A stretch of DNA of 64,000 nucleotides, taken from positions 25,454,017-25,518,016 of the forward strand of contig NC_088649.1 in NCBI RefSeq assembly GCF_964019385.1, in the 5' to 3' direction. The translations under genes and the position numbers were made by a program. This DNA comes from Sycon ciliatum (taxonomy: Eukaryota > Porifera > Calcarea > Leucosolenida > Sycettidae). This document shows positions 2,692 through 62,709 of the stretch, in pieces. The notes under the pieces are model-generated. The model was not told the DNA's origin. It searched no databases and saw only the letters and a program-made list of their open reading frames with translations. Position 1 is the first letter of the stretch. Each line of letters begins with the position of its first letter.

Positions 2692-2766
2692 CCACGAACC
2701 AGGGACCCTCACTTGTAGCCAGCGATGCTGTAACCACTGAGCTATGGTGTAGTGGTCATCCCAGCA
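2692..2766 (-). repeat. tRNA-derived SINE head
   Basis: On the minus strand there is a box A-like TAGCTCAGTGGT followed about 40 nt later by a box B-like GGTTCGTGGCT, with a tRNA-like body between them. The T arm is degraded and there is no clean acceptor stem, so this is a SINE-type relic rather than a tRNA gene. A related but better preserved tRNA-like unit lies at 30210-30283. Confidence 0.55.
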
Positions 2767-2789
2767 GAAACCGTTCAACATTTTCTTCA

Positions 2790-3955
2790 GACTTCGTAAC
2801 TCACACTTTGTGTGAATCTATACAGGCGGGTGGGACGCATCCCTCACTGCAATCCACACACTCCACCTACAAACTAGCACGCAATATTCTTCCAGGATCA
2901 TACATCCTATCCAAATTCTACTTTGTTCTCCCAGAGATTTGGACAATAATCAACTCGTTCACCTACCTGACGGGCTGTTCAAAGCCACAACCAAATTAGA
3001 AGAACTGTAAGTCACATTGTGAATGTACCGTAAAAAGGCCTTTTTGTCCAAGTTCTTTTGAGATGTGGCAAATGGGATTTCGGGATATGGCATCTCGTTG
3101 ATTGATCCCATGTACCCTTTATGACCCGAAGCTGACGCCGCTCGTGGAAGACTCTTCCAGGTAGAACTCCGTGTTGGAAGCAAAGAGCTGACATAGTGTC
3201 TTTACAAGTTCCATTGCGCATTCCTTCAAGAAAGAAACTAGCTCCTGCGATTTTTTTCCACTTAGCCACCTATTTAACCTCTCCTTTACCACAGGCAAGT
3301 TCCCTACCGAATGGAAACTGGCTAAATTTTTGCCTATTTGCAAGTGCAAAGGCAGAAAATCCCAAGCGAGTAACTATCGCCCAATTTCCCTCCTGTCCTG
3401 TATTTCCAAACTTTGCGAACGGGTCTTCTTCAATCAATTATATAATCATATTTCTCCTGCTCTGGATCCCGCGCAATCTGGGTTTTGTCGTGGTGACTCG
3501 ACCGCTCTACAGCTCACCAAGCTGATCCAAAACATTGCCGACCATCCTCATATGGGGCGGAAAGTTGCCATGTGCTTTTTCGACCTCGAGAAAGCTTTCG
3601 ACACCGTGTGGCACTGTGCATTACTTGCTAAACTTTCCAAAGTTTTTGGTGTGTGTGGCGCAGCGCTAGAGTGGATAACAGACTACCTATCCGACAGAAC
3701 GCAAGTTGTCTTTGTAGTTGGACTTCTCTCAGATGCTTCACCTGTTCTGTCCGGAGTGCCGCAGGGATTCATCCTAGGGCCCCTCCTTTTCCTAGTGTAT
3801 ATTAGTGATCTTCCCAGTCATGTTGAAGGTGTGTCCTTATTTGCTGACGATACTGCACTGCTCCGGTTCAATGAGTGTCTAGAGAGGCTGCGAGACAGTC
3901 TCCAGCTCGGTATCAACGAAGTCCATCAGTGGATGACTACCTGGAGATTAAGACC
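2790..3955 (+). pseudogene. CR1/L2-like reverse transcriptase, 5' part (interrupted)
   Basis: From about 3270 the plus strand encodes a LINE reverse transcriptase: NYRPISLLS near 3370, QSGFCRGDSTALQL near 3480, the first catalytic Asp in FFDLEKAFDTVW near 3585, the VPQGFILGPLLFLVYISDL block near 3755, and the FADDTALL active site near 3840. Before 3270 homologous coding is interrupted by stops. The frame is cut at 3955, where a TA-flanked element (3958-4953) is inserted, and it resumes in register at 4956. The gene is dead: 5' part degraded and split. Confidence 0.85.
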
Positions 3956-3957
3956 TA

Positions 3958-4953
3958 CAGTCCGTTTCAAAAAGATTTACAATCCTGGCGATCGCCCGCG
4001 GAGTTTGGCGTCATACCGTATGAGCACTCGAGCGCTGCCTGGAAAAACTCACTGTGAACTCGAAGAAATATTCGCGCGAAAGCAGGAAAATTGACAACTC
4101 ACTCACGTTGTCACAGTCATGTACGTCTGGTTTACAACAAACGAGTTCTTCCTCGTATCGACAATGGAGTCAGAGAGGACATGTCGAAACGAAAGTGTTG
4201 TAAATGTTGACGAGCTGCATGGGTCCGTTTTGTGACCAAAATAGTTTCTCACCGTGTGACGAAAACGACATCGACACGGACTCATTCCCAAGGCCATGAC
4301 TTGGCAAAGCTATCCGTGTGACTTCGACGACATTTTGAGAAAAACAGACGCTTGTGAACGTTGATAGAAGACGGCGTTGACTGCTAAATTCAAATAAATT
4401 GGCGATCTTGAAATACTAAAATATATCTCAAAAAGCTACTGCGCGATGACTTCCATTATAATTCACTCACACCATTACAGTGTTGTGGGTGTGTTCACAT
4501 GGCATGAGCCAGTCAAGTGTCAGTCAGTTCGGCAGGAAGCGCGAGCTCCAACAACAAGTCGTTTGGTGTAACCATCTTCTTTGTCTTGTACCAGCTTGAT
4601 CACCTAAACAATGAAAAAAAAGTTTGACTTGAGGATAGGTTGGGATTTGAACTCACAACTTCATGGTCAGCAGACAGCATTCATAACCACAAGGCCAAAA
4701 AGGAAAGGATAAATCGTGGGTTTTGATAAAACATCGATACTGGCTTCCTGGGCAAATTGTAAACCATGGGAAAAGGCCAGAAACCTGGCCGAAATTCTAA
4801 CTTCTTAACGGTTGGTCCAATTGTTCTGAAACCTTCACAGAACACTTTGCCGTGTCCTAACAAGCCATTATATATACTTTGTTGTCCAAATTTCCCTTAT
4901 CTTCATACTTTTTAAGACCCAAAACTGATTGTAAATCTTTTTGAAACAGACTA
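3958..4953 (-). mobile_element. Tc1/mariner-like non-autonomous element (family C), TA duplication
   Basis: Inverted ends of about 27 bp beginning CAGTCCGTTTCAAAAAG pair with the opposite end near 4928-4953. The element is flanked by TA on both sides (3956-3957 and 4954-4955). It sits inside a reverse transcriptase reading frame, and removing it with one TA restores the frame, which independently confirms the borders. A second full copy in the other orientation lies at 43461-44504, and a partial copy at 6500-6813. No transposase is seen. A tRNA-like stretch with a box B-type GGTTCAAATCC motif (minus strand, about 4635-4690) is carried inside. Superfamily assignment rests only on the CAGT-type ends and TA target. 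Confidence 0.85.
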
Positions 4954-6904: not shown

Positions 6905-7156
6905 CTATCTGGCCGCTTTTGGAAAACGCCCGGCGGAGTACAGATATTTGCGTTCGGAACCGAATGATTCTAGTCTATACATGTTGCCACTCACCGACTT
7001 ACAATATTTTATACTCGCTCCATAGCAAACCAGTCGGGCGAACTCATTCAAATCGGTGAGGACGACGGAAAGCGCCCCCTCAAGCTCCAACACCAGGCAC
7101 CGCTCCACACGCCAGCACGCCAAACACTGCAGCGTGGTCACCTCCACCGAGAGATG
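6905..7156 (-). repeat. Dispersed repeat, similar to 23010-23115
   Basis: About 100 bp on the minus strand closely matches 23018-23115 plus. Both translate to a similar Cys-rich stretch (VTTLQCLACW... then ELE.ALS). It is fused directly to the truncated retrotransposon copy at 7157. Nothing identifies a protein family. Shared translation may simply reflect recent common origin. Confidence 0.45.
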
Positions 7157-7601
7157 TTCAGAGTGTTCTGGAAGGCTTTCCAACTGGGGCTATTATCAGA
7201 TAGTGGTGTGGACGGTTTACTCGTAGCTGGACAGAAATCTGGATCCGAGAAAATTTGCTCACGAGAGGGATCTTCATAAAGTTTGGAGAAATACTCAAAG
7301 CAGGCCTGTTCCGAGAAAGTGGGTGTTACACGTGATCTGCTTTGGGACATGCGTTTTGCAAACCTGTAAGGGTCCTTAAGAAAGGCCGTCCGCTGTTTCT
7401 GCGCTTCACGGTCTTGCTCTTGTATTTGGATGATCTTTCTCAGTTTCTTGATGTCTTTTTGCACACGGTTGTAGTCTGATCTGATGGTATCAACCTCATG
7501 GACGGCAAGCTTATCTCTCCTTCGATATTGCTTACGCAGTGCACGGCGTTTGATGTAGAGCTCAGTTAAGCATTTGGACTGACATGGCTTCTTCGACCTT
7601 C
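7157..7601 (-). mobile_element. R2-type retrotransposon array, copy 4 (internal fragment)
   Basis: The minus strand encodes residues equivalent to about 248-388 of the full-length protein at 12679-16281: the basic linker before the reverse transcriptase (CLTELYIKRRALRKQYRRRD, then KDIKKLRKI), ending at SWKAFQNTL. The upstream side abuts a (TTC)n tract directly. The downstream side is cut and joined to an unrelated repeat near 7156, so it lacks RT, endonuclease and 3' UTR. Loss of the 3' end is not what target-primed reverse transcription normally gives, so a later deletion is inferred. Confidence 0.85.
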
Positions 7602-7663
7602 GAAGAAAAAGAAGAAGAAGAAGAAGAAGAAGAAGAAGAAGAAGAAGAAGAAGAAGAAGAAGG
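7602..7663. repeat. (GAA)n / (TTC)n microsatellite
   Basis: About 20 near-perfect GAA triplets separate retrotransposon copies 3 and 4. On the coding (minus) strand this reads TTC and immediately follows the 3' end of copy 3. Confidence 0.97.
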
Positions 7664-9470
7664 GAAATGCTCACCATCAAATGGTGGATAAAAACCGTTT
7701 CGACTGCTTTTTAGACAGTAACGGGTGAAGAAAAAAGGAAAAAGAAACTCATATAATGCAATTCGAAGAGATAGGCCCCCAGTACAGTTGGGGTGTGGTT
7801 GTGTCCGTATGGTATGGTGTGTCATGTACAGGTAGTTGCGTTGTGATGTATGGTAATTTGTAGGGCGAATGTCGAGAAGGCTATGAAAATAACGATTCGA
7901 CAAGAACAAGTGACTACGAGAGGTTGGCAAGGTTGGCGATCGTCCACCCCCGGCCCTTTAGAGGCCGGAATGGCGAGTTCAAATCTTGATTTTAAGGACG
8001 TCCAACTATCCTCGCTGGGTGGCCGATCGCCCACCAAGTGCTCTACAACAGGTTCACCAGACAGTTTTAATACAACGGCCAGTCGCGCCATGTTCGCTCC
8101 CTTCGCCTTAGCCATAGAACATAGCTTGAGTTCAGCGCTGCTTGGCGACAATTCCTCCGCAAGAGCCTGCGCTGTTCCTTAGTGCAGCGCAAGGATCTCG
8201 CGAAGGAATCCAAGCTGGTGGATATGGCGCCTCTCGCTCCCACCTCTGCTGTGTGACTTTCCGTATCCCAGCCATTCCTTACACACGCGCTATGAAGGTG
8301 ACGATAGCGTTCGATTTTGATTTCGCGCGATTGTGCAAAGCGATCTTCACTACATACCGTGAGTTCCAGCCACAGAACTCTTCTCAATTCTTTGGAGAAG
8401 AGCACTATGTCTGGACGACAGGTTGTAGGTGCTATGAAGTGGGGAAAAACAAGTTTCTCATCTTTCATGTCCACCAGGACCTGCCAGTCTGCTGAGCTAG
8501 TTACGAATTGGTCATTTAGCCGTTTGCGTTGGGAGGGGGGCTGTTTGGGGAGATTCTCTCCTGCCTTGCAGAAAGTTATGTAATCAATTCTCTTCTGTTT
8601 ACTCTGCGTTTCTGCTGATGCCGTGGCCTTTTGATAAGTTTGGATGGTTTCGTTTACTAGTTTTACTATGCATTTCAGTACGTTGTCGTGGCACCAGGTA
8701 TATCTGCCCTGGTGGAGGGCTGTTGGACATGCTGATAATATGTGACAGAGCGTAACTTGCCTGTTGCATAGAGGGCATTGTTGTTCGACCACAGAGTTAC
8801 CCCACCTCCTCAGATTGTCAACTGTTGGTAGTGTGTTTAATACACAGTTTAGTTGAAAGGAGAAAGTCCTCCCGTAGCCTTCGTACAACAGTTTTTTTTT
8901 TCACTGCTTTCAAGTGAGGTCTTCAAACATCGTGTCTCTCCACTTTAACCAGCTGCCTTGCATTTGCAGGCTTTTGAGGTGGGATAGCTGGTCTTGGCAG
9001 TCACCTTCATGAATGGTATTGAGTATTTGTTTTCTAGGTTTGATTTTCTCTTGTTTGTCATGCCTAAAGCCGAGTCCTGCCCTGCCTTGCCGGAGGTTAG
9101 TTGGACTAGCTTCAGAGATCGCTGCCTCGGCACATTCCATTTCTTTTATTGCGGAGTATTGTCTTGTGAGCAGATACTGTTGTTTGCTGTGATGTTGGTA
9201 CAGGTTTGCCATGTTCTTGTCGCTGCTGTTCTTGATGATATTCCATCTAATGACCTGTCGTTGCTTCTATAGCGTAGGGATGTACGTTAAACGTAGGCCG
9301 AAGCGCTCCCGAGCGCCGATGAAGAGTATTGCTGGTGCTGCGGGTCTGGGCAAGCCTGCCCATTTCTTTAAGAATCGAAGGCAAATTCTGTGTAGGAGTT
9401 TGGCGAAACTGTGGCTGAGATCAAGTATCTCGAGCTGCCATGCTATTTTGGGGATGATTTGATGCTGGTA
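7664..9470 (-). mobile_element. R2-type retrotransposon array, copy 3 (5'-truncated)
   Basis: The minus strand carries the C-terminal ~450 codons of the RLE-type retrotransposon protein plus a ~390 bp 3' UTR. Coding starts at the (TTC)n border near 9466 (equivalent to about residue 745). It continues through a CCHC finger (CPLCNRQ... HILSAC), near 8770, and the endonuclease CRPDIVLFSKELRRVLWLE near 8400, and stops at 8067. Frameshifts lie near 8890-8910 and 9260. The 3' UTR holds a conserved stretch near 8010-8040 and ends in a CACCAT/ATGGTG hairpin (7672-7686) just before the microsatellite. It is nearly identical to copy 2 apart from a short indel near 8640 and a different 5' truncation point. 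Confidence 0.9.
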
Positions 9471-9575
9471 GAAGAAGAAGAAGATGAAGAAGAAGAAGAA
9501 GAAGAAGAAGAAGAAGAAGAAGAAGAAGAAGAAGAAGAAGAAGAAGAAGAAGAAGAAGAAGAAGAAGAAGAAGAA

Positions 9576-9606
<31 letters not shown>

Positions 9607-9675
9607 AAGAAGAAGAAGAAGAAGAAGAAGAAGAAGAAGAAGAAGAAGAAGAAGAAGAAGAAGAAGAAGAAGAAG
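9471..9675. repeat. (GAA)n / (TTC)n microsatellite
   Basis: About 68 GAA triplets with a single interruption near 9575, lying between the 5' edge of copy 3 and the 3' end of copy 2. Confidence 0.98.
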
Positions 9676-11398
9676 GGAAAACTCACCATCAAATGGTGGA
9701 TAAAAACCGTTTCGACTGCTTTTTAGACAGTAACGGGTAAAGAAAAAAAGGAAAAAGAAACTCATATAATGCAATTCGAAGAGATAGGTCCCCAGTACAG
9801 TTGGGGTGTGGTTGTATGGTATGGTGTGTCATGTACAGGTAGTTGCGTTGTGATGTATGGTAATTTGTAGGGCGAATGTCGAGTAGGCTATGAAAATAAC
9901 GATTCGACAAGAACAAGTGACTACGAGAGGTTGGCAAGGTTGGCGATCGTCCACCCCCGGCCCTTTAGAGGCCGGAATGGCGAGTTCAAATCTTGATTTT
10001 AAGGACGTCCAACTATCCTCGCTGGGTGGCCGATCGCCCACCAAGTGCTCTACAACAGGTTCACCAAACAGTTTTAATACAACGGCCAGTCGCGCCATGT
10101 TCGCTCCCTTCGCCTTAGCCATAGGACATAGCTTGAGTTCAGCGCTGCTTGGCGACAATTCCTCCGCAAGAGCCTGCGCTGTTCCTTAGTGCAGCGCAAG
10201 GATCTCGCGAAGGAATCCAAGCTGGTGGATATGGCGCCTCTCGCTCCCACCTCTGCTGTGTGACTTTCCGTATCCCAGCCATTCCTTACACACGCGCTAT
10301 GAAGGTGACGATAGCGTTCGATTTTGATTTCGCGCGATTGTGCAAAGCGATCTTCACTACATACCGTGAGTTCCAGCCACAGAACTCTTCTCAATTCTTT
10401 GGAGAAGAGCACTATGTCTGGACGACAGGTTGTAGGTGCTATGAAGTGGGGGAAAACAAGTTTCTCATCCTTCATGTCCACCAGGACCTGCCAGTCTGCT
10501 GAGCTAGTTACGAATTGGTCATTTAGCCGTTTGCGTTGGGAGGGGGGCTGTTTGGGGAGATTCTCTCCTGCCTTGCAGAAAGTTATGTAATCAATTCTCT
10601 TCTGTTTACTCTGCGTTTCTGCTGATGCCGTGGCCTTTTGATAAGTTTGCTAGTTTTACTATGCATTTCAGTACGTTGTCGTGGCGCCAGGTATATCTGC
10701 CCTGGTGGAGGGCTGTTGGACATGCTGATAATATGTGACGGAGCGTAGCTTGCCTGTTGCATAGAGGGCATTGTTGTTCGACCACAGAGTTACCCCACCT
10801 CCTCAGATTGTCAACTGTTGGTAGTGTGTTTAATACACAGTTTAGTTGAAAGGAGAAAGTTCTCCCGTAGCCTTCGTACAACAGTTTTTTTCCAAGTGAG
10901 GTCTTCAAACATCGTGTCTCTCCACTTTAACCAGCTGCCTTGCATTTGCAGGCTTTTGAGGTGGGATAGCTGGTCTTGGCAGTCACCTTCATGAATGGTA
11001 TTGAGTATTTGTTTTCTAGGTTTGACTTTCTCTTGTTTGTCATGCCTAAAGCCGAGTCCTGCCCTGCCTTGCTGGAGGTTAGTTGGACTAGCTTCAGAGA
11101 TCGCTGCCTCGGCACATTCCATTTCTTTTATTGCGGAGTATTGTCTTGTGAGCAGATACTGTTGTTTGCTGTGATGTTGGTACAGGTTTGCCATGTTCTT
11201 GTCGCTGCTGTTCTTGATGATATTCCATCTAATGACCTGTCGTTGCTTCCATAGCGTAGGGATGTACGTTAAACGTAGGCCGAAGCGCTCCCGAGCGCCG
11301 ATGAAGAGTATTGCTGGTGCTGCGGGTCTGGGCAAGCCTGCCCATTTCTTTAAGAATGGAAGGCAAATTCTGTGTAGGAGTTTGGCGAAACTGTGGCT
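9676..11398 (-). mobile_element. R2-type retrotransposon array, copy 2 (5'-truncated)
   Basis: Same family and subfamily as copy 3, truncated about 60 bp further into the element (it begins at the equivalent of about residue 763). It encodes the post-RT region, CCHC finger and restriction-like endonuclease in broken frames: shifts near 10890 and 10650, and a break near 10481. Stop is at 10074. The 3' UTR ends in the CACCAT/ATGGTG hairpin at 9683-9697, followed directly by (TTC)n. High similarity to copy 3 with a different truncation point argues for two separate insertions of one active source rather than a simple local duplication. Confidence 0.9.
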
Positions 11399-12092
11399 GA
11401 AGAAGAAGAAGAAGAAGAAGAAGAAGAAGAAGAAGAAGAAGAAGAAGAAGAAGAAGAAGAAGAAGAAGAAGAAGAAGAAGAAGAAGAAGAAGAAGAAGAA
11501 GAAGAAGAAGAAGAAGAAGAAGAAGAAGAAGAAGAAGAAGAAGAAGAAGAAGAAGAAGAAGAAGAAGAAGAAGAAGAAGAAGAAGAAGAAGAAGAAGAAG
11601 AAGAAGAAGAAGAAGAAGAAGAAGAAGAAGAAGAAGAAGAAGAAGAAGAAGAAGAAGAAGAAGAAGAAGAAGAAGAAGAAGAAGAAGAAGAAGAAGAAGA
11701 AGAAGAAGAAGAAGAAGAAGAAGAAGAAGAAGAAGAAGAAGAAGAAGAAGAAGAAGAAGAAGAAGAAGAAGAAGAAGAAGAAGAAGAAGAAGAAGAAGAA
11801 GAAGAAGAAGAAGAAGAAGAAGAAGAAGAAGAAGAAGAAGAAGAAGAAGAAGAAGAAGAAGAAGAAGAAGAAGAAGAAGAAGAAGAAGAAGAAGAAGAAG
11901 AAGAAGAAGAAGAAGAAGAAGAAAAAGAAGAAAAAGAAGAAAAAGAAGAAAAAGAAGAAAAAGAAGAAAAAGAAGAAAAAGAAGAAAAAGAAGAAAAAGA
12001 AGAAAAAGAAGAAAAAGAAGAAAAAGAAGAAGAAGAAGAAGAAGAAAAAGAAGAAGAAGAAGAAGACGAAGAAGAAGAAGAAGAAGAAGAAG
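11399..12092. repeat. ~0.7 kb (GAA)n / (TTC)n tract
   Basis: About 175 uninterrupted GAA triplets (11399-11923) are followed by about 11 copies of a 9-bp variant (GAAGAAAAA) to about 12025. A mixed GAA stretch with one GAC ends at the 3' terminus of copy 1. The long frames through it (poly-Phe, poly-Leu, poly-Glu, poly-Lys) are artefacts of the repeat. Confidence 0.98.
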
Positions 12093-15000
12093 GAAAGTAA
12101 TTCGCACCAATAAAAACTGGTGGGTAAAAAACCGTCTCGACTGTTTTTTAGGCAGTGACGGAGAAAGTAAAAGGAGAAAAGAAAAAGAAAAAAGAAGCGG
12201 ATGCCACTGTGGGCCAATGCCTGGGGTTGAGCAAAAGCGGTGAAGGCTAAAAAGCTCTTCAGAGCGGGAGCAGGCCAGTGCTCAGCGTAGTGCAATATGG
12301 ACGAGACTGTTGTAGTGAAGTTGTGGACGAGACTGTTGTAGTGAATTTGTGTTGTGGCGTCGTGCAGCTTAACAGCAGCTTGGTGCAGCGAAAGCATACA
12401 GCGAATGGCAGCGCGCAGTGTTGTGGCTTCGTGCAATAGTAGCTCTAAGCGGCGAAAGCATCTACTGATAGACTCGCTCCAGCGCGGCGCAGCACAAGCA
12501 AGTAGACTAGAAAAACGAATAAAAACGAACGAAAGCTCGACTTGGTTGGCGAACACCCACCCCCGGCCCTTTAGACGCCGGTGTGGCGAGTTAAAACCAA
12601 GATTTGAAGGGTACCCAACTATCCTCGCTGGGTGGCTGTCCGCCAACCAAGTGCCAACAAATGGCCTCTCGGGGACTTTTAAAACAGTGGCCAGTCGTGC
12701 CAAGCCTCCTCACGTCGCCTCAGCCAGATAACGTAGCTGGAATTTAGTGCTGCGTTTCTGCAGTTCCTTCTTATTTGGCGCTGTTTTTCCTTACAACAGC
12801 ACAATGCCCCTGCCAAACCGTCCAGGCTGCTGGAAATGGCTCCTCTAGCTCCCACCTCTGCTGTGAGGGCCTCGACTTCCCAGCCATTCTTCACACACTC
12901 CTGTTTGAGGTGGCGATACCGTGACAGCTTCTTCTCCCTGGACTGGATGATGCGGTCTTCGCTACACACCGTGAGTTCCAGCCAAAGAACCCTTCTCAAT
13001 TTCTTCGAGAAGAGAACTATGTCTGGACGACACGTGGTAGGTGCAATAAAGTGTGGGAATACCAGCCTCTCGTCCAGATCTGAAAGAAGCTGCCAATCAT
13101 GTGATCCTGACAAAAAACCATCGCTCAGACCTTTCCGCTGAGGTAACTCGCCATGGGGGATGTTTTGACCCGGTTTACAGAAGGTAATGTATGTACCCTT
13201 AGTGGGAGTTTGCTCGGTATTTGACGACTTTTGCTTTGCTGATACTATTTCTGTCATGAATTTACTGATCTGTTTGAGGACGTTGTCATGGCGCCACGTG
13301 TACCTTCCTTGATGGAGTGAGGAAGGGCAGGCGGTGAGAATGTGCCTCAGTGTTGATGTCCGCTGACAAAGAGGGCAATTCTGGTCCACAACAGAGTTGC
13401 CCCATCGTCTCAGATTGTCAGGCGAAGGCAGAGTATTAAGTATCGCGTTCATTTGGAACGATATCGTCCTTCCATAGCCCTCGTATAAGAGTTTCCGCCA
13501 TATCATGTCCTCGAACATTGTGTCTGCCCATTTGGTCCAGGCCCCTTGCATTTGTAGGCCCTTTAGGTGCCGGAGCTGCTCCTGGCAGTCGCCTTCTCTG
13601 ACTGTATTGAGAATTTGTTTCCTTGGTTTTACCACGCGTGCTTTTGGTGTCACAAAGCCCAGTCCGGCTCTGGGCGGTCGCGAAGCTGGCGTGTCCCATA
13701 CGGCCGTTTCGGCACATTCCAATTCCACAACCGGCGAGAACCTACGGGTGAACGTTTGTTCTTGTTTTCTGTGATGGCAATACAGTTGAGCGATGTTGTG
13801 GTCTTTGCTGTGCTTGATAATGTGCCATTTAATAGTTTGCTGCTGCTTCCATAGTGTTGTGATACACATGAGCCGGAGGCCTGGCCTTTCTCGATTTCCG
13901 GTGAAGAGGATGGCGGTGTTTGCAGCCTTGGGTAGGCCTGCCCACTTTTTAATAAAGGAGAGGCTGATGTGATGAAGCATTTTTGCAAAACTGTAACACA
14001 GGTCAAGTATCTCTAGGTGCCATGATATTTTCGGGATGATCAGATGTTGATAGAGCCAGAGTTTCTGGTGACCGACAAGGTGGGTTTCATGCACCAGTTT
14101 TAAGAGGTATCTATGAAGGTCAACGAGATCTTTGCGTTGTTCCTCCTCTTTCATATTGTCCGTCAAATTTCTCCCCAGAAATTTGAATTGCCGACCATTT
14201 AGCGGCGGTACATCCTTGCCGGATATTGTAAGGCCGGGGTCGAAACAGGTGTACTTGTTGTTGATTAGTTTCGCCGCGTAGGTCCTGCATTTATGCGGGG
14301 CAGCTTTCATTTGAGACCAGGACAAAAACTTGTCCACAACATCTAGTTTCTTTTGTGCGCCATGGGTTCTGTTACTAAAAACGGCTAAATCATCTGCGAA
14401 ACCAGTGTTAGAAGCAGTGATATCCGTCTGCTTGAAATTGTATGAAAGTGCCTGTAGGGGTTTTGCCTGGAGGGCATCGAGGAGGACTTGGAAGGTAATA
14501 TTGAACAGTACTGGGGACAGTGGGCATCCCTGAAACACACCGATACTGTACCGGAACGTCCGGGTCTGGGGCTTTCGTACGGAAGCAGTGAGATGTTCGT
14601 AGTAAGAAAATACAAGTCTTCTGATTTTCAGTGGGATATGGTACCGATGCAATGCCGCTTGAATTAAATTGTGCTTTACTGATCCGAACGCGTTCTTTAG
14701 GTCTATCCACACAATGGCTATGGAGCGCTTGTTCCTCTTCGAGTCTTTCATGGCTTCGCTACACAGAGTAGCATGCTCAACACAGCCTGACATTCCCGGC
14801 AGGAAACCTTTCTGTGTCATGCCATCAAAATACTCATTCACCAACATATGGCGAGTTAGTATCTTGGACAGCATGGCAAAGAAGATCTTACCATCGCAGT
14901 TGGAGAGAGCGATTGGTCGGAACATTGCTGGATCTGACACACTGTCACTTTTAGCAATTAGTGTAACGAAGGCGCACTGCCAAGAGCGCGGGATGACACC

Positions 15001-16362
15001 AGTCTTCCAAACTGTTTCGAAGATGCTGAAAAGGATATTGTGCAGGCATTTGCATCGTTTCCAGATTATGTACGGAATACCGTTTGAACCAGGAGCTGAC
15101 TTGTTCCTGCATTTTCTTAGGGTATTTTGAAACAGGGTCCATGTTGGACTCCCGTCAGTTAACGGAGTGGACGGTTTGCTCGTTGCTGGAGAAAAATCCG
15201 GCAGGGAGAAAGTTTGCCCACGTTCCGGGTCTTCATACAACTTGGAGAAGTAATCAAAACAAGTCTGTTCTGAGAATTCAGGATTGACGGGCGTTCCTTT
15301 CCGGGATAGCCGTTTGGCAAACTTATGGGGGTCTCGGAGGAAGGCAGAGCGTTGCTTTTGTGCTTCGCGATCCTGCTCGTGTGTTTTGATGATTTTCCGC
15401 AGTTTTTTGATGTCCTTCTGCACCCGGTTATAATCCTTTCTGAGGATCTCAACCATATGCTCGTCTAATTGGTCCCTGGCTCGGTATTGTTTTCGTAGGG
15501 CGCGGCGCTCCATGTAGAGCTCCGTTAGGCATCTGGATTGGCGTGGTTTGGTCGACTGGCGCTTTGGAACTGCATCCAAGGCGGTGTAGTCAGTGAAGAA
15601 AAATCTTAAGAAAGACGTTAGTTGACCTAGGGATTCATCAGGGTCAGCATTCTTGATTTTTGACAGAGGAAAATGGCGCTTAATGTGTTGCTCAAGTTGT
15701 TGGTCTGCTTTTGCCCAGGCAAGGCTAGACCTTGGCAGGTACAGTTTGTTATTGGGCAGATCCTGATCCGGTTTATCATCATTTGCATGCAAAACTTGCT
15801 GGGAGCAATGCTCCATCCTCTCGGCTGTGACAATGTTGCCGTCAGCGCTGTGCTCAGGAGGCGGGCTGACTGGGTTGGCAACATGCGTGTTACCACTCCT
15901 ATTGCTAGGGGTGAGCGGAATGTCAATTCCCTTACTTAGGTAAACCTTACAGGATTTAAGGTGACGTGCCATGTTAGATTTGAATATGTTTTTCATGCAA
16001 TGCGGACATGGCTTTTTACTAGTACAGTCTTTCAAACTGTTTTGGTTGTTGGCTGCAGCGGCATCTATTGGTTGCTTTCCCGCAGGCGCAGCCCCTGGTT
16101 CTGCGGAAAATTTGATGAATTTTTTCGTCTGATAATGACGACTTAAGTTGTAGGCGTGGCTCAGGGTACTTCCGCACCTATCGCACACCACTCCACCTAG
16201 CTGCGAATTCGAAAAACTAAGGGCGGTCATCGGCTTTGACACGCCACTACCAGACCCGTAGCTCTCCCGGGTAGTTGGCATAAGTGGAGGGTCTGGACTT
16301 GATGGGCAGTCCAGGGAGGGGTTATGCTCCGCCCGCTTTCGCCCCCTCGGGCCAGCATCTCT
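12093..16362 (-). mobile_element. Full-length R2-type (RLE) non-LTR retrotransposon, copy 1
   Basis: This is a ~4.27 kb element on the minus strand, bounded on both sides by (TTC)n: upstream 16363-16515 and downstream 11399-12092. It has an 81-nt 5' UTR, one uninterrupted 1200-codon ORF, and a ~585 bp 3' UTR. The 3' UTR ends in a CACCA/TGGTG hairpin (12105-12122) next to the microsatellite. The protein differs clearly from copies 2 and 3, so it belongs to a sister subfamily. The single ORF with N-terminal zinc fingers, central RT and C-terminal restriction-like endonuclease is the R2/NeSL/Hero-type layout. Clade within that group is not resolved. Confidence 0.93.
12679..16281 (-). CDS. RLE-type retrotransposon protein: zinc fingers, reverse transcriptase, restriction-like endonuclease
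   Basis: 1200 aa with no internal stop. From the N-terminus: a degenerate C2H2 finger (C33, C36, H49; second His missing); a second finger C92-x2-C95-x11-H107-x3-C111; a basic coiled linker at about 245-310; reverse transcriptase about 390-700, with catalytic Asp527 (WIDLKNAF), the QGCPLSPVLF block near 584 and the FADD site at 628-631; a CCHC finger C969-x2-C972-x7-H980-x4-C985; and the endonuclease RPD (1085-1087) with Glu1102. In R2-like elements these recognise the target, nick it and prime cDNA synthesis from the nick. I chose the ATG at 16281 because the frame further upstream is only microsatellite. All key residues I can check are present, so this copy may be competent, though that is inference. 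Confidence 0.93.
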   Translation of the reverse strand: MPTTRESYGSGSGVSKPMTALSFSNSQLGGVVCDRCGSTLSHAYNLSRHYQTKKFIKFSAEPGAAPAGKQPIDAAAANNQNSLKDCTSKKPCPHCMKNIFKSNMARHLKSCKVYLSKGIDIPLTPSNRSGNTHVANPVSPPPEHSADGNIVTAERMEHCSQQVLHANDDKPDQDLPNNKLYLPRSSLAWAKADQQLEQHIKRHFPLSKIKNADPDESLGQLTSFLRFFFTDYTALDAVPKRQSTKPRQSRCLTELYMERRALRKQYRARDQLDEHMVEILRKDYNRVQKDIKKLRKIIKTHEQDREAQKQRSAFLRDPHKFAKRLSRKGTPVNPEFSEQTCFDYFSKLYEDPERGQTFSLPDFSPATSKPSTPLTDGSPTWTLFQNTLRKCRNKSAPGSNGIPYIIWKRCKCLHNILFSIFETVWKTGVIPRSWQCAFVTLIAKSDSVSDPAMFRPIALSNCDGKIFFAMLSKILTRHMLVNEYFDGMTQKGFLPGMSGCVEHATLCSEAMKDSKRNKRSIAIVWIDLKNAFGSVKHNLIQAALHRYHIPLKIRRLVFSYYEHLTASVRKPQTRTFRYSIGVFQGCPLSPVLFNITFQVLLDALQAKPLQALSYNFKQTDITASNTGFADDLAVFSNRTHGAQKKLDVVDKFLSWSQMKAAPHKCRTYAAKLINNKYTCFDPGLTISGKDVPPLNGRQFKFLGRNLTDNMKEEEQRKDLVDLHRYLLKLVHETHLVGHQKLWLYQHLIIPKISWHLEILDLCYSFAKMLHHISLSFIKKWAGLPKAANTAILFTGNRERPGLRLMCITTLWKQQQTIKWHIIKHSKDHNIAQLYCHHRKQEQTFTRRFSPVVELECAETAVWDTPASRPPRAGLGFVTPKARVVKPRKQILNTVREGDCQEQLRHLKGLQMQGAWTKWADTMFEDMIWRKLLYEGYGRTISFQMNAILNTLPSPDNLRRWGNSVVDQNCPLCQRTSTLRHILTACPSSLHQGRYTWRHDNVLKQISKFMTEIVSAKQKSSNTEQTPTKGTYITFCKPGQNIPHGELPQRKGLSDGFLSGSHDWQLLSDLDERLVFPHFIAPTTCRPDIVLFSKKLRRVLWLELTVCSEDRIIQSREKKLSRYRHLKQECVKNGWEVEALTAEVGARGAISSSLDGLAGALCCCKEKQRQIRRNCRNAALNSSYVIWLRRREEAWHDWPLF

Positions 16363-16366
16363 GAAG

Positions 16367-16397
<31 letters not shown>

Positions 16398-16547
16398 TGA
16401 AGAAGAAGAAGAAGTTGAAGAATAAGAAGAAGAAGTTGAAGAAGAAGAAGAAGAAGAAGAAGAACAAGAACAAGAACAAGAACAAGAACAAGAAGAAGAA
16501 GAAGAAGAAGAAGAGAGAGAGAGAGAGAGAGACACACACACACACAC
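16363..16547. repeat. Compound microsatellite flanking the 5' end of copy 1
   Basis: Reading plus: (GAA)n with GTTGAA variants, then (CAAGAA)n, (GAA)n, (GA)n from about 16512 and (CA)n to 16547. On the retrotransposon strand it gives (TTC)n immediately before the element's first base, matching the tract on its 3' side. Confidence 0.97.
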
Positions 16548-17445
16548 TCCCCTTATTCATGGCTCACACATGACGGGTTTACGTGGCTCTAGTTAAAAAA
16601 ACCTAACAGGTTAGTTGGGTAACTCCGCTCTTCTTCCTCGCTCACCGGAGGAATTTCTCTAGTCTCCTCGCGCAACTGGGGAGCACTCCAATGGAGAGAG
16701 AAAGATTTTTATAGGGCGGCTTGGTGTGAGAGGTGGACTGAGACTTGACGGCGCTAACGGCGAATATCAAGACCTTACGGCCACGGAGCTGCGGGACTCT
16801 GCGCTGGTCGTCTATCCGTGTGGAGGCAAAGCAAACGCGGGCAACATTCTGCTGAAGCGAGCGTGGAGCTGAAGCTGGATTGGTGACTGACGCACCTGCT
16901 TACTCCACAACACCGGCGCATAATGATGTGCATGTACAAGACTTCGTGAGTATTCAACTCAAATTCGTGTTCCGTCAGCGTCAGTATCAGCAAGTACAGT
17001 CATGTAGTACAATTTGTTCCCAAAATAACTTCGGGACAGTCTGTTCATGGTTTTCATTTGTATTGGACTCGTTCTCTACACTTGCGATAATTTAGCGGCA
17101 ATTCTAACGTTGTAGCGTTGTTCTCTTGTAATTTAGTGGAACCTGTATTGAGTAACTGAGTTTTATGTTTCGTTACATTGTCGTCAGATCTCCTGTGTAC
17201 CGGTTTTGTGGCACAATGATTATAGCCATTATATTTGGTCGTCTCCATTCTTGTGCAATCATGCGTACATGTATGTAGGTTGGTTCTCTTCATGTTATTG
17301 TGACCAATTTCATAGATGTTGGTTGCCTTGTTGCTTTCTCTCCCCTCTCCTCTCACCCAAGCCATTCTGCATAAGCGAAGCTGTGGACGCAGCATACTGC
17401 TGCTACACTTCAACGCGGGAATGCGTATAATAATAATAAGTTAAA
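16548..17445. other. No gene seen
   Basis: Mixed-composition sequence without a recognisable exon or repeat. A TATA-like run (TTTTTATAGGG) near 16709 lies in a GC-moderate stretch but nothing downstream supports a promoter call. Confidence 0.45.
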
Positions 17446-24595: not shown

Positions 24596-25709
24596 TTAAC
24601 CCTTTGCGTGCTGAGTACGAGTTAACTCGCACTTTATGCATGACCTGATCCACTACGTACGAGTTAACTCGCAAAAAGTTCGCGCACTGTATCGCAGTGC
24701 ATAGACCAGTGTAAACTTTCGTAACTTCGTCAAACATAAACGCATCGCGACAATCAATACACCGTTGGAAAGATCTTCACCTCATCTTTCCGGGGATATA
24801 AAGTTCTTCGCGATCGAATAAGAATTCATTGAGCGGCGACAAGATGAACACGGAAATCACGGCCCAGAGTGAACGCGCGCTGTATCGCAGTGCATAGACC
24901 AGTGTACAAACTTTCGTAACTTCGTCAAACATAAACGCATCGCGACAATCAATACACCGTTGGAAAGATCTTCACCTCATCTTTCCGGGGGTATAAAGTT
25001 CTTCGCGATAGGATACGAATTCATTGAGCGGCGACAAGATGAACACGGAAATCACGGCCCAGAGTAAACGCGCGCTGTATCGCAGTGCATAGACCAGTGT
25101 ACAAACTTTCGTAACTTCGTCAAACATAAACGCATCGCGACAATCAATACACCGTTGGAAAGATCTTCACCTCATCTTTCCGGGGGTATAAAGTTCTTCG
25201 CGATAGGATAAGAATTAATTGAGCGGCGACAAGACGAACACGGAAATCACGGCCCAGAGTGAACGCGAATTTTTTTGTTCATAACTTCTTTTTGTTGCAG
25301 AGCGTGCCAGGGGATTTCCCTTTTGGCACGGCGCATGCGTGATGGACATCAAATGAAGCGCTTGGATCTGAGCTTTGCAGCGCAGTTTGAATTGTGAAAA
25401 TCTGTTGAATTTGGGCAAGAAGCCGAACAAGAATGTGAAATTGAGTTGTTGTGCCGTTCCGAGGCACGGTGGAGTAATTCGGAGAGGACCTGGATGTGGC
25501 CCTGATGTGTCTATGGAGCTGAGAGCTGCCAGGATGGATTCGCTTGGTCCTGATCTTTCCAACGATCCCAGGACGATGAAAATCCATCAAGGTTGAGTAA
25601 AATCAGAATAAATTTCGTTCGGAGCTGTGAGTGCATACTCCACCAAGAGAGTCAGTGCGCTGTACGGCCAGTGGATTGGAGAAAAGGGGCTCAGCATGCA
25701 AAGGGTTAA
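24596..25709. mobile_element. piggyBac-like non-autonomous element, TTAA duplication
   Basis: The target TTAA is present at both tips (24596-24599, 25706-25709). The ends are inverted copies, CCCTTTGCGTGCTGAG on the left and CTCAGCATGCAAAGGG on the right. A subterminal ACGAGTTAACTCG palindrome occurs twice on the left (about 24617 and 24660). TTAA targeting with CCCTTT ends is the hallmark of piggyBac. The interior is a three-copy tandem repeat plus ~430 bp of unrecognised sequence, and no transposase is seen. Confidence 0.85.
24682..25266. repeat. Three-copy ~195 bp tandem repeat inside the piggyBac-like element
   Basis: Units start near 24682, 24872 and 25069 with CTGTATCGCAGTGCATAGACC, and share AAACATAAACGCATCGCG, CACCGTTGGAAAG and GAGCGGCGACAAGA. 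They are almost identical with a few substitutions and a 2-base length difference. No coding. Confidence 0.95.
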
Positions 25710-30502: not shown

Positions 30503-32033
30503 TCAGCCTGGTCCCATAGCTCCCACCAACACAGACCTCGAAGGAGGAGGGTCAGGGGGAGGCAGAGGTGCTGTCACCACTCGAGGCACAGCCCCATGCA
30601 AAGCACCCAGAGGTACAGACTTAGGCACACCCAAGGGCTGCACCACCTCCAAAGAGCTGCCAAGCTCAAGCCCGTCCAACACAGATGTCAGAGGGGGAGC
30701 GGCAGACAGCGGCAGGGAACTATCCTGCCGTGTAGGTGATGGGTTTTTCCTAGGCCTCCCGCGTTTGGGCCTCTCAGATTGCGCACTGGGTGGAAGGATG
30801 TGAAGTGGAGTGTGTTGTTTGATACGTGCGTTCAGGTGCTGAACAGTCCTACCAACATACCGACTAGCACAATGTCGGCATTCGAAGTTGTAGATAACAT
30901 GACTGAGGTGGAGGGTAGGTAGGACGTCCTTCCGCACCGTGAACGCACGCATTGTTGTGAAGACTGGCACAAAATTTACTGCATAATAAGTACGACGGAC
31001 GATAGACTTGACTTCGTGACACACTTTGATCGATTCCTGCCCCTTCCATGGCAAACATAGATAGACGGGACAGCGAGGTGGACCAATCAGCACCGATTTC
31101 GGTTTCTGCTCCATGGACAGAAACTTACGCAACAAGAATTCCGGATAGCCATTCTTCAAGAAAACAGATCGAAGAAAATCGAGCTCGGCCTGCAGCTTAC
31201 TGGGCGAACAAATACGTTTCGCACGGTCCACGAGGTTACGAACTAAGCTGACCTTGTATTGAGACGAACAATATGAATCGAAGGCAATGTACTGACCGGT
31301 GAACGTAGGCTTACGATACACAGAAGTCAACATTTCACAGCCAGTCTTCTCTACAAGCACATCTAGAAATGACAACTTACTAGACTGCTCGTGCTCACAA
31401 GTAAAGCGGAGGGAAGGATGTAGGCTGTTGAGCACATCGAGAAACAATTCACTGCTCTCAACACTGTCAAAATGCGTGAACGAATCGTCAACAAAACGCA
31501 CGTAGAACGCGAGCCAAAGCGACTCATCAATCTTGCACTCACAATAACCAACGAATATATTGGCGAGGACGGGACCAAGAGGAGATCCCATCGCCACACC
31601 ATCCACTTGCTTGTACATCACATTGTTGAACGAAAATTCGACATCAGTTGTAACTGACAGCATCAAATGAGGAAACGCCACTTCCGATACCCATGGAGTA
31701 TCAACATCATCGTTACGGTACAATACATCCATACAGATGTCAACAGTCTCATCAAGAGGAACATTCGTAAAGAGCCTTACAACATCGAAGGAACACATGT
31801 GTGCATTGAGAGGGACCGGACTATCACGAAGCCTCGCACCAAAGTCGAAGCTATCCTTCACAGTGCGTTTGCAATAGTAAACTTGAACAGGCTGTAGGTA
31901 GATGCACAGCCATTTCGAGATAGAGTATTGAGGGGAGGCGGTCATGGACACTATTGGTCTAACAGGGCATGTAGGTTTATGGATTTTAGGAAGGCCATAG
32001 ATAAGCCGAATTTGTGTGTCCAGAAAGATACCC
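30503..32033 (-). pseudogene. Penelope-like element: long open RT plus GIY-YIG frame (5'-truncated)
   Basis: About 510 continuous minus-strand codons without a stop. Motifs in order are IYGLPKIHKP near 31995, motif A (CSFDVVRLFTNVPL) near 31795, motif B (GVAMGSPLGPVLANIF) near 31575, motif C (FYVRFVDDSF) near 31490, KLSFLDVLV near 31350, and the GIY-YIG core (YNFECRHCASRYVGRTVQHL) near 30875. A Pro/Ser-rich tail with an AT-hook-like KRGRPRK near 30750 follows. The frame ends inside a SINE fragment near 30503, so the natural C-terminus is uncertain. The N-terminal RT part is missing: a stop precedes 32033. Catalytic Asp residues are all present. Confidence 0.85.
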
Positions 32034-44948: not shown

Positions 44949-46224
44949 GGGACCTTTCGCATTTGCTACGAATCGAATGCGAAACGAAAGTTTGATTCGG
45001 CTCGTATCGTTTCGTTGAAAACAGGATTCAGGTTTCGCAAGTCGTCATGCAAATGTGCATGGCAACTACGAATATGGCCAGTAGCTTAGCGTACGGGTGT
45101 TTACACGCACACGTGCATGGATCATGGAATCAAGGGAAAAAGGTTTCCCGTATGTGACGTGATTGTCGCCTTGGAGTTGACCAATGACAGATCAAACAGC
45201 GTGGGCTGGAAAGCGCGGTCCTGCCTGCTCAAAGTAATGATGGAACTGGATCCGCTGCCCGTCGTCAAGTGACGACGGTCAGGAACGGATTCCACTGCCC
45301 GTCGTCACTTGACGATGGGCAGGAACGGATTCCACTGCCCGTCGTCACTTGACGACAGGCAGGAACGGATTCCACTGCAAGTGACGACGGGCAGTACCCA
45401 CTGGACTGACTATCTACTTCATGGTCTTTCATTGGTTACTAATAACATAACTACAAAAGTCTAAAGCAGAAGAGCGACTGTTTGCAACCACAACTGTCAT
45501 CATGGGGCTCCAACATTTGATCTGGAACTGGGAGAAAAGAAGCCCCTTTGTTGAACGATATTGGCGATGTGAATGAGCTCCTCTGAAAAGTTGAAGGAGA
45601 TCTTGCACGAGCCGGATGAGCCTCAACCAAAGCGCACAATGCTCAGCAACCTGCAGGACCCGCACAATTTGCCGAGGTGTCCGATCAAGACCTGAGAAAA
45701 ATCCGTAGGAACAGAACTGTCAGACTGCCCGATGCACAGTCGACAATGTCAATGGCACCACGAGAAAAAAAGCACAATGGGCTACTACAAAAAACTGTAG
45801 ATCTACCAGAAAACAATCACAAGACACAAAACACAATGCATGCAGGTGTGTCTACACTTTGTAGTCTGTCATGTATCTCTTTATTTGGCTTGGGTGCACA
45901 CGGGAAACACGTTCCAATCACTCATACTCGCCCAGTACCGCTGTTCATCCAGCTCTTGCCGCTATCGCGGCGTGGGCTGGATTCCGCGGTACTGCCCTCG
46001 TACTCGTGCAGGAACCTGTACGTACCTGGCAAAACATTTGTATCTGGCCAAATAAATGTGTACCTGGCCAAATAAATGTGTACTTGGCGGATTCGGAGCG
46101 CGCCACGAACAAAGAGGCTTCCATTCGTGAAAACGAGCTCTGCACAGGGACTCTGACGAATCCTCGAACCCAGGTGGCGAATCAGCATTCGTTTCGTATC
46201 CGTACGCGGGGTGCGAAAGGTCCC
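44949..46224. mobile_element. Element D, TA duplication, GGGACCTTTCGCA ends
   Basis: Ends GGGACCTTTCGCA and TGCGAAAGGTCCC are flanked by TA (44947-44948, 46225-46226). Removing it with one TA joins the ORF1 frame of the host LINE, which supports the exact borders. The interior carries a hairpin tandem repeat (45244-45396) and a ~21 bp tandem word (46030-46085, GCCAAATAAATGTGTAC). No transposase. Confidence 0.8.
45244..45396. repeat. Tandem repeat of a palindromic ~49 bp unit
   Basis: Three to four units of GGAACGGATTCC followed by CTGCCCGTCGTCACTTGACG, each unit containing the complementary halves GTCGTCA/TGACGAC. Every unit can therefore form its own hairpin. Located inside element D. Confidence 0.85.
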
Positions 46225-59800: not shown

Positions 59801-60299
59801 CATTCCGGTACGTGCGTTCGTGCTCCCTCCATCTCGCTCTCTCTCTCTCCTCTCTCTCTCTCCCTCTCTCTTTCTCTCTCTCTCTTTCTCCTGGGCCTGT
59901 ACTACGCGCCACGTGCTTGTCACTTGTCGCGTAGCGCTAGACCAGGACGTTACACGTATACACCTGGAGGCACGACAACGTACTCGGGGTCATCGACAGG
60001 AACATGCGTGAGGAGATTCGAATCCGCGCTGCTGCAAACACTGTACAAACCGAAAATTCAAATGAGCTTGACTTCATCTTATTATTTCTTTTCTATAATT
60101 TCCCTAACAGTTGCTGTGAACACCTGGAGTGGAGAGCGCTTGCTCGAGCGTTGACCCGGGTTCTTAATCCACCATACCCAGTTCGCAAGGCTGGACCGGG
60201 TTGTGCGGAGCAGGCTTTCATTTCATCTTTTCTTATTATTTCTGCTTTTCATCACAATACAAAGAAATTGCTTAGAGGGGGACAGACGGTAAGAGTCAC

Positions 60300-62709
60300 A
60301 GTTCTGCGAGGAAGTGGACATGTTGATCCGCAATGGATGGTTGGTACCCCATGACCAAGCAGTCCATGGTGAGCCTGGTGCTGTGTTTCCCTTGTTGGCG
60401 GTGTTCCAGACACACAAGGAGTCCACCCCTGTCCGCCCGCGTTTGGACTACCGGCAACTCAACAAGTTGATTGTGTCGCATCCAGGTTTGGACGTGCCTG
60501 TTTGCCAAGAGAAATTGCGTCAGTGGAGGTCTATTGGCAACGCCGACAGCCACGTGTTGCTGGACATCAGCAAGGCTTACCTCAACATCCGCATCGCGCC
60601 AGCTCTCGCCAAGTTACAAACGATCGTCTGGAAGGGCCAGCTGTTCGCAATGGAGAGGATGGGCTTCGGTCTATCGATTGCGCCCAAATTCATGGACATA
60701 ATCGTCAAGTGCGTCCTCCGTGCGTATGCTGATGTGGATAACTATGTCGACGATTTGTATGCTCCGAAGCCTCGTCTGCGTGCTGTCACCGATCAGTTGT
60801 CGCAGTACAGATTGCCCACCAAGCCAGCGGAGCCAGTCGTCTCTACTACGGTACTCGGCCTGCTGCTGTCAGAGTCTGCAGATGGCCAAGTGAGGTGGAA
60901 GCGTCGTGGTGACGTCATGCCGACCTGTCAGCCCGATGCCGTCACAAGGCGCGAGATTTTCAACTGGTGTGGCAAGCTGACCAGCCACTATCCTGTCGGC
61001 TCCTGGCTGCGCCTGGCGTGCAGTTATCTGAAGCGTCTGTCTAGCCTTCAGCCTGGATGGGACGATCCAGTGTCTCATGAAGTCGTCGCTTGTTGTGCGG
61101 AAGTCATTCACCGTCTGCAGACCGATGACCCTGCGCAAGGTGTGTTGTCAGTTCCTGAAGACGCACAGTGGTCGTTGTGGTGTGATGCTTCGGACATCAC
61201 ACATGGTGCTGTCATTCAGGCCGATAGTAGGATTGTCGAGGATGGCTGATGGCTGCGGCAGAAGGACGACCGGCGACACATTAACATCGCTGAACGTGAC
61301 GCTGTGATCAAGGGGTTGCACCTTGCCATGCAGTGGCAAGTGAAGGAGCTCACACTATTCACCGGTTCCAAGACTGTGGCTGCTTGGTTGCAATCGGTGC
61401 TTGGCAAGGTGTCTCGTGTTCGCGTCAGCGGCCTGCAGCAGGTACTTGTACAGCGCCGTCTCCAGATTATCACTGATCTCGTCGCTGTCACGGGCTTGAC
61501 AGTCAAGGTCCAGTGGATCAGCAGTCAGCAGAACAAAGCGGATCAATTGACCCGTGTTCCCAGCAGCTGGATCCGATGTGGCAAGACGCTCCTTTCTCGG
61601 ATTGCACCGTCCGTCACCGCTGCGGTTGTGACCGTTAGTCCATTCTCATTGGACAGAGTATGTGCTGCTCAGAATGCAGATCCTCAGATTGTTGCGACTT
61701 GCCAGCAAGTCATCGATGGTGACCCAGTTACTGATCCTGCGTTTGTCAAGGTCAAGTCACAGCTCGTAGTCCATGATGGTATGCTGTGTCGAAGTGTGAA
61801 GTTGCCGCCCAATGATGCAGTCGTCATTCCTGTTATTCCTAGTTCACTCGAGTCCGATGTCGTTCGTGCTGCTCATGTGAACTGTGGTCATGCGTCTTGG
61901 GAGGGTACATTGCGCTTCCTCCGCTCGAAGTGCTATTTCCCGAACATGGCTGCCCAATGTCAGCAGTTTTTTTGTGCGCCACTGTTCGCCGTGTGCTGCT
62001 GCCAGCCCAACCAAGGGCGTTTCGGCGGATGCCAGTCGCCCTGTGGTGGCTGATGGCCCAATGGAGTGCTGTAGTAATAGATACTCTGGAACTGGGCGTC
62101 GATCAGAGTGGAGAGTACCATTGTGTTCTCGTCTGCATGGATACTTTCACCAAGTGGGTGGAAGTGGTTCTGCTCCGTCAACATGACGCGGCATCAGTGG
62201 CCGAGGCATTTGTCGGCCTGTGTACGCGGTGGGGCCCGCCCCGAGTGGTCTGCTGTGATAATGGCACGGAATTCATCAACGCCATGATGTCATCGCTGTT
62301 TGACACGTTTGGTGTGACAGTGCTCAACGGTGCCGTGCGTCATCCCCTATTACAGAGATCTGTTGAGTGATTTAACCGCACTCTCCTCACCTTAATTCGG
62401 AAGGTGTTGGATGAGGCTGATGATTGGCGATCTGAGCTGGACGTGTTACTGTATTTCGACCCTATTCGTGCGCACTCTGTCCTCAAGATTTCTCCTATGT
62501 GTGCGATGCTTGGCTGGGAGCCCTCCGGTGTTCTCTTGTCGGCTACTCCTGGGCTGGGCCGGACTCCATCTGATCTTGAACGCCAGGCTGCTCGGATCCG
62601 TGATTTTGTGGAAGCTGAGCTGTCCTCCAAGGACTTTGTTGAGTCTGAAGCTGATAACTGTCTGTTCGCCGTTGGTGATGCCGTTCTTCTACGTCGTGAA
62701 GTAGAGTAA
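60300..62709 (+). pseudogene. Ty3/Gypsy-like pol: RT, RNase H, integrase
   Basis: RT: LDYRQLNKLI near 60450, LLDISKAYLNIRI near 60560, GFGLSIAPKFM near 60665, DNYVDDL near 60740. RNase H: WCDAS near 61180. Integrase: a His/Cys finger (HVNCGHASW...), then the D,D-35-E core with VIDTLELG near 62080, CCDNGTEF near 62255 and SVE near 62362, and a C-terminal tail ending 62709. Defects are a TGA at 61247, a frameshift near 62030 and a TGA at 62368 right after the catalytic Glu. Order RT-RNase H-IN is the Ty3/Gypsy order. LTRs are not found. Confidence 0.82.

Follow-up and report, generated by a model that had tools for sequence, protein, structure and literature searches.

The window studied here is a 64-kb stretch of the Sycon ciliatum genome (C8:25454017-25518016), in which four copies of non-long terminal repeat (non-LTR) retrotransposons are stacked in a (TTC)n microsatellite; genome-wide searches covered the 538-Mb assembly. 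All four elements lie on the minus strand, and in 5' to 3' order the array reads TTC tract, copy 1, tract, copy 2, tract, copy 3, tract and copy 4, as listed below with window positions (RT, reverse transcriptase; RLE, restriction-like endonuclease; UTR, untranslated region; ORF, open reading frame). Elements and tracts overlap by a base or two because the alignment and the tract share letters at their edges.

16363-16514, minus: TTC (sense) tract 5' of copy 1, imperfect
12093-16362, minus: copy 1, family B, ORF-complete, without 193 nt of the 5' UTR
12679-16362, minus: copy 1 open frame, 1227 codons from 16362, with Cys/His motifs, RT, zf-RVT-like motif and predicted RLE fold
12541-12651, minus: copy 1 3' UTR hairpin (folding of 12530-12660, z -6.9; A/B comparison)
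11399-12092, minus: TTC (sense) tract between copies 1 and 2
9675-11400, minus: copy 2, family A, 5'-truncated (A:2484-4214)
9938-10045, minus: copy 2 3' UTR hairpin
9470-9675, minus: TTC (sense) tract between copies 2 and 3
7662-9472, minus: copy 3, family A, 5'-truncated (A:2430-4214)
7931-8038, minus: copy 3 3' UTR hairpin
7602-7662, minus: TTC (sense) tract between copy 3 and fragment 4
7157-7602, minus: copy 4, family A internal fragment (A:920-1364, 98.4%), no 3' end

The initial annotation, made from the sequence of this window, had described same-orientation copies with sense-strand TTC and no other flank between them, and this layout was borne out. Its view of four copies of one element needed revision: copies 2-4 belong to family A and copy 1 to family B, about 70% identical in DNA, and the stack is therefore mixed. 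Copy 1, which had been called full-length, is complete in its ORF and lacks 193 nt of 5' UTR compared with other B copies, a segment that is present in three fused B copies. Copies 2-4 do start at different points (A:2484, A:2430 and A:920) with TTC adjoining. A 3' end at TTC, claimed for each of the four, was found in three, because copy 4 is an internal piece without a 3' end; its 5' side adjoins TTC and its 3' side meets other DNA at 7156. Positions 16515-16547, beyond the TTC tract, are (AG)n/(AC)n, and the remainder of the 64-kb window contains no TTC/GAA run longer than 9 bases.

Coding and 3' UTR features of families A and B

The B open frame starts with zinc-finger-like Cys/His motifs (recognized by eye) and matches RVT_1 (E 2.5e-26), and hence encodes an RT of the long interspersed nuclear element (LINE) type. 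Its best relative in PDB by sequence is R2 (E 3.7e-33), and the modelled C-terminal part is predicted to adopt the RLE fold. The A and B proteins share 65% identity over 672 residues, with other pieces at 50-83%. A and B are two related RLE-encoding non-LTR retrotransposon families. The label "R2-type" was apt for the RT and the endonuclease fold; membership in R2 proper was not supported, as the 54 B 3' ends found genome-wide sit at TTC or the other sites described below, and not in 28S ribosomal DNA (rDNA). A Dong-type (TAA)n target was likewise rejected, the target of A and B being (TTC)n. Placement near HERO/NeSL is a guess from motifs.

A strong hairpin (z -6.9) is common to the 3' UTRs of A and B and is possibly a handle for the RT. 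Since folding of the entire 608-nt 3' region gave a z of only -1.07, the hairpin block alone stands out. That the hairpin belongs to a described RNA family or is a self-cleaving ribozyme was considered and dismissed, as Rfam matches stayed at chance level.

TTC flanks and same-orientation stacks across the genome

For the tabulation of flanks, window positions 12100-12600, which contain no TTC tract, served as the query; scoring 40 of 247 initial candidates gave 47 matches. Twenty-four segments (271,570 bases) were read and yielded 69 insertions, fragments and split copies included. A flank was counted when TTC of at least 9 bases lay within 11 nt of the alignment edge, a tract shared by stacked copies counting for both. 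TTC was thus present on the 5' side of 59/64 visible ends, on the 3' side of 55/64 and on both sides in 47/59, and the sense strand reads TTC at every junction with a tract. This is the pattern of a microsatellite-targeted LINE, with the repeat on both sides of most copies in a single orientation. Five ends lack TTC on the 5' side, namely those at C1:59.01M (a telomere-like repeat intervenes) and C125:8519 and three at C5:33.4M, one of which is a piece of a split copy. Of the nine ends without TTC on the 3' side, four belong to fragments or 3'-truncated copies and one to a piece of the split copy. The initial annotation had proposed that (TTC)n/(GAA)n is targeted and that every insertion leaves the target for the next, and had named as contrary evidence a majority of copies with unrelated unique DNA to either side; among the 59 insertions with both ends visible, just one unsplit copy has neither side TTC-rich. 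Its interpretation is thereby supported in substance.

At C1:59.01M, five CCCTAA telomere-like units stand between the TTC tract and the B 5' end (L038, right of 2559). Nowhere in the 24 segments does one A or B copy interrupt another, and two inserts of other kinds interrupt B copies. One, of about 980 bp, has CCCTTT...AAAGGG termini flanked on each side by TTAA (C5:33404327-33405309; segment C5_33388000, 16328-17310; L037) and is presumably piggyBac-like. The other, 67 bp long and flanked on each side by AAATA, has (AAT)n at its end (L035:3156-3222).

Searching by pattern gave 54 B 3' ends genome-wide (up to 3 mismatches; pattern control 0). B ends followed by four GAA number 42, 38 of them among the 54, and (TTC)n adjoins 43/54. 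All 16 B ends outside the four-GAA set were read: five show TTC once past an altered junction, five carry no more than a single TTC unit before other DNA begins (one an R tail, described below, and two from one duplication), four run straight into another B copy, and two (L056 and L058) run into (TTG)n or a mixed pyrimidine repeat. For A, 125 3' ends were found (pattern control 0), and 83 ends with four GAA when a single end variant was used, 64 of them among the 100 A ends listed.

The 54 B ends and the 100 listed A ends are strongly clustered. They form 82 neighbour pairs less than 10 kb apart, 81 of which share one orientation, with 0.44 pairs expected by chance. They fall into 72 clusters, 15 of which mix A and B, and 120/154 ends belong to multi-copy clusters. 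Outside several stacks, other DNA lies beyond TTC on both sides. Alternatively, unequal exchange between TTC tracts might have multiplied a few insertions, in tandem or as segmental duplications, and so have produced most of the stacks. Plain duplications do occur (twin copies at B:2951 at C5:33.40M; shared flanks at C12:2.80M/2.82M and C8:31.8M/32.08M), the equal spacings of A copies could have been multiplied in this way, and because some loci are duplications our counts overstate the number of independent events. Yet truncation points differ among most stacked copies, two families are mixed in 15 clusters and the unique outer flanks differ between unlinked sites, so that we hold duplication to be a very unlikely source of most stacks.

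Pre-existing GAA repeats and the proposed mode of insertion

Four B copies at different places adjoin one sequence, (TTC)nGGTAACTACAAG... or a close variant. On the opposite strand this sequence, here termed R, reads ...HLLLACPARHSSRAATRL...LEKLI up to a stop, after which come a short 3' UTR and the (GAA)n tail. R is apparently the end of a LINE reading frame, judging by its letters; a Pfam search with the 85-residue R piece gave no match. At least 40 R copies exist (78 candidates), and the tails of 20 of the 40 were read, five beside known B ends and 15 others being left out. The tail is empty in 16/20, with the layout other DNA-(TTC)4-21-R, these being paralogous sites and not same-locus alleles. 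In the remaining 4/20 an A or B 3' end stands directly at the tail (L072, L073, L074 and L081); L072 and L073 look like one duplication, and L074 and L081 are A. A and B entered the R tails in one orientation. As the repeat is present at empty R tails, (GAA)n pre-exists and is very probably the target of A and B.

The initial annotation had also offered the alternative that the element appends (TTC)n at its 3' end. The RNA would then end in (UUC)n and carry TTC to random sites, and stacks would arise by nested insertion. TTC does follow most 3' ends in a single fixed phase, as such a tail would predict. Against this, TTC also occupies the 5' side (59/64), some 3' ends have 0-1 TTC units, fused copies (described below) are joined flush after ...TTTCC, which places the RNA end there, 16/20 R tails bear the repeat without A or B, and copies are never nested in the segments read. 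Because the repeat exists before insertion a templated tail is not needed, and we judge it extremely improbable.

The 3' junction has a constant phase in nearly all ends read, CC followed by TTC in B and CCC followed by TTC in A, although exceptions exist. The 5' junction is variable and shows slight microhomology (1.28 nt over 54 junctions, duplicates included, compared with 0.65 for random breakpoints; P 0.001). A constant 3' phase together with a variable 5' junction would be expected if reverse transcription were target-primed at a nick made at a fixed phase in the GAA strand. GAA repeats adopt unusual structures and break, and fragile tracts might instead be entered at breaks by a loosely selective endonuclease; L056 and L058, which out of 54 B ends are the two that adjoin (TTG)n or a mixed pyrimidine repeat, would fit such entry. 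The single orientation and single 3' phase in 38/54 B ends by pattern and in 83 A ends, the predicted RLE fold and targets as short as 12-63 bp in R tails argue otherwise, and entry without sequence-specific nicking appears unlikely.

From the flanks, the junction phase, the orientation, the presence of both families within stacks and the (GAA)n tails seen both empty and filled, we propose, with a probability of roughly 0.88, that A and B insert into pre-existing (GAA)n/(TTC)n, so that TTC would stay on both sides and mixed stacks of one orientation would grow. Several findings weigh against this proposal. Eleven of the 54 B ends lie away from (TTC)n, and the copy at C125:8519, the sole unsplit one of 59 with neither side TTC-rich, lacks TTC on its 5' side, while its 3' side is a one-unit R tail. 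Loci at C12:2.80/2.82M and C8:31.8/32.08M share flanks, and L072/L073 and L057/L060 are duplicated as well. Covariation in the hairpin is weak, with two double changes between A and B and a score equalled in 40/500 shuffles. Truncation of the 5' end recurs near or inside the hairpin at B:3711-3713 in four unlinked loci (C1:59.0M, C4:12.9M, C8:9.13M and C9:13.6M), and at A:3869-3874 in four copies from three places (two on C125, C4 and C8:31.8M). Fusions of A copies are putative, being deduced from the spacing of ends. Finally, tracts in stacks reach 723 bp, compared with 4-21 units in empty R tails; hence either the process lengthens tracts or long ones are preferred.

Under insertion into pre-existing repeats, the RLE would nick the GAA strand at a fixed phase, and the GAA 3' OH would prime reverse transcription from the exact RNA end (...TTTCC in B and ...CCC in A). 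The transcript would end in ...UACUUUCC without a UUC tail. Because synthesis would usually stop early, a truncated 5' end would be joined to the upstream TTC. The site would remain a target since TTC persists on both sides, the next copy of either family could land there, and stacks of both families would grow.

A minority of copies are joined without TTC. Three B ends join a full-length B 5' end flush, one of the three with a 22-nt piece of 3' end in between. Full-length B 5' ends number seven genome-wide. In four of them the first base lies 8, 8, 8 and 30 nt beyond a B 3'-end match, where the 8 nt are the final bases of the element itself, and a fifth (C1:59.01M) fits a fusion by extrapolation from L038. 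The one on C10 lies 264 bp beyond an A end with GAA (by subtraction of positions), and the one on C3 is 2170 bp from the nearest of the B ends compared. Seven pairs of A ends are spaced 4298-4334 bp apart, four at exactly 4334, and the upstream end lacks a GAA tract in 7/7 such pairs compared with 29/93 other ends (P 0.0005).

The flush joins are best read as RT template jumping, in which the enzyme, having reached the 5' end of one RNA, would continue on the 3' end of another within one insertion. The downstream member is full-length in all three flush joins read, as template jumping predicts, and joins recur on several chromosomes; both observations speak against fusions formed by recombination or by insertion exactly at the boundary of tract and element. 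So does L051, which meets a truncated B copy with a single TTC that either separates the two or belongs to the copy. Insertion at an edge is possible, however, because the L061 3' end meets non-element DNA without remaining TTC. Equal exchange can multiply one fusion, and unequal exchange could multiply flush joins as well. A boundary or recombination origin is accordingly a real possibility, which we rate somewhat short of even.

Internally deleted single copies were also seen (C1:14.99M B2449/3507, C8:32.08M B3574/4107, C12:23.77M A3356/4148 and C5:33.40M A2295/4168) and are perhaps RT jumps within one RNA. Copies at C12:23771903-23775407 (2056-2404) and C11:22224738-22228243 (2736-3506) each contain one inverted part, which we take to resemble twin priming. 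A third RLE LINE family, C (P0004; LOC135828238), has many open frames at C3:5085615-5099382 and in many other places, several close together, with 97-99% identity in most of the 90 matches listed. Elsewhere in the window, RVT_1 pieces at 30503-32032 (minus), 60293-61249 (plus, also DUF7047) and 3192-4094 (plus) look by eye Penelope-like, BEL/Pao-like and LINE-like, respectively, and tandem repeats occupy 24681-25267 (195 bp, 3 copies) and 45242-45378 (40 bp, 3.4 copies).

Relation to known elements and significance

In R2, 5' truncation results from target-primed synthesis. A and B resemble R2 in RT sequence and in the linker/RLE fold, on the A/B side as modelled for the C-terminal part only; the target of R2 is 28S rDNA, where none of the A/B ends read lies. 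Dong (Bombyx, R4 clade), an RLE LINE targeting (TAA)n, likewise sits in a trinucleotide microsatellite, although the repeat differs. MoTeR (Magnaporthe) is a LINE piling on itself in telomeric repeats, whereas A and B occupy dispersed GAA/TTC sites. Zepp of algae also piles on itself, but it is nested, with about one cluster per chromosome (PMC3446292), unlike the dispersed A/B arrays. SaTar Mutator-like elements (MULEs) of guayule and rice form linear non-nested arrays through microsatellite targeting (PMC5907723), just as A and B do, although they are DNA transposons and A and B retrotransposons. The closest parallels in target choice are Togen (fish, (TG)n) and some HERO families (leech), RLE-encoding LINEs specific for a microsatellite (PMC4640811). 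Togen differs in its repeat, and the HERO repeats may overlap with GAA. The (GAA)n tails of R are paralleled by RTE LINEs, whose 3' ends generate microsatellites (PMC2887409). A literature search of open-licence papers, with Repbase Reports outside its scope, found no RLE LINE specific for GAA/TTC. Microsatellite-targeted RLE LINEs are thus already known from Togen, some HERO and Dong, and the GAA/TTC target is what A and B add.

Tentatively, at a little under even odds, the whole may be a two-tier parasite: the LINE R would scatter (GAA)n tails, and A and B would use these tails and other GAA/TTC repeats as pads open to renewed insertion, lengthen them and build non-nested arrays, with RT jumping producing full-length flush concatemers. 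If so, the concatemers would be in vivo traces of R2-like template jumping. They make template jumping testable in vivo. With A and B, the targets of RLE retrotransposons come to include GAA/TTC, the repeat class of Friedreich ataxia, and natural sites both empty and filled are at hand for testing. A nickase/RT with site specificity for GAA repeats would serve as a tool. The stacks illustrate how an element tied to one target can keep from exhausting its sites.
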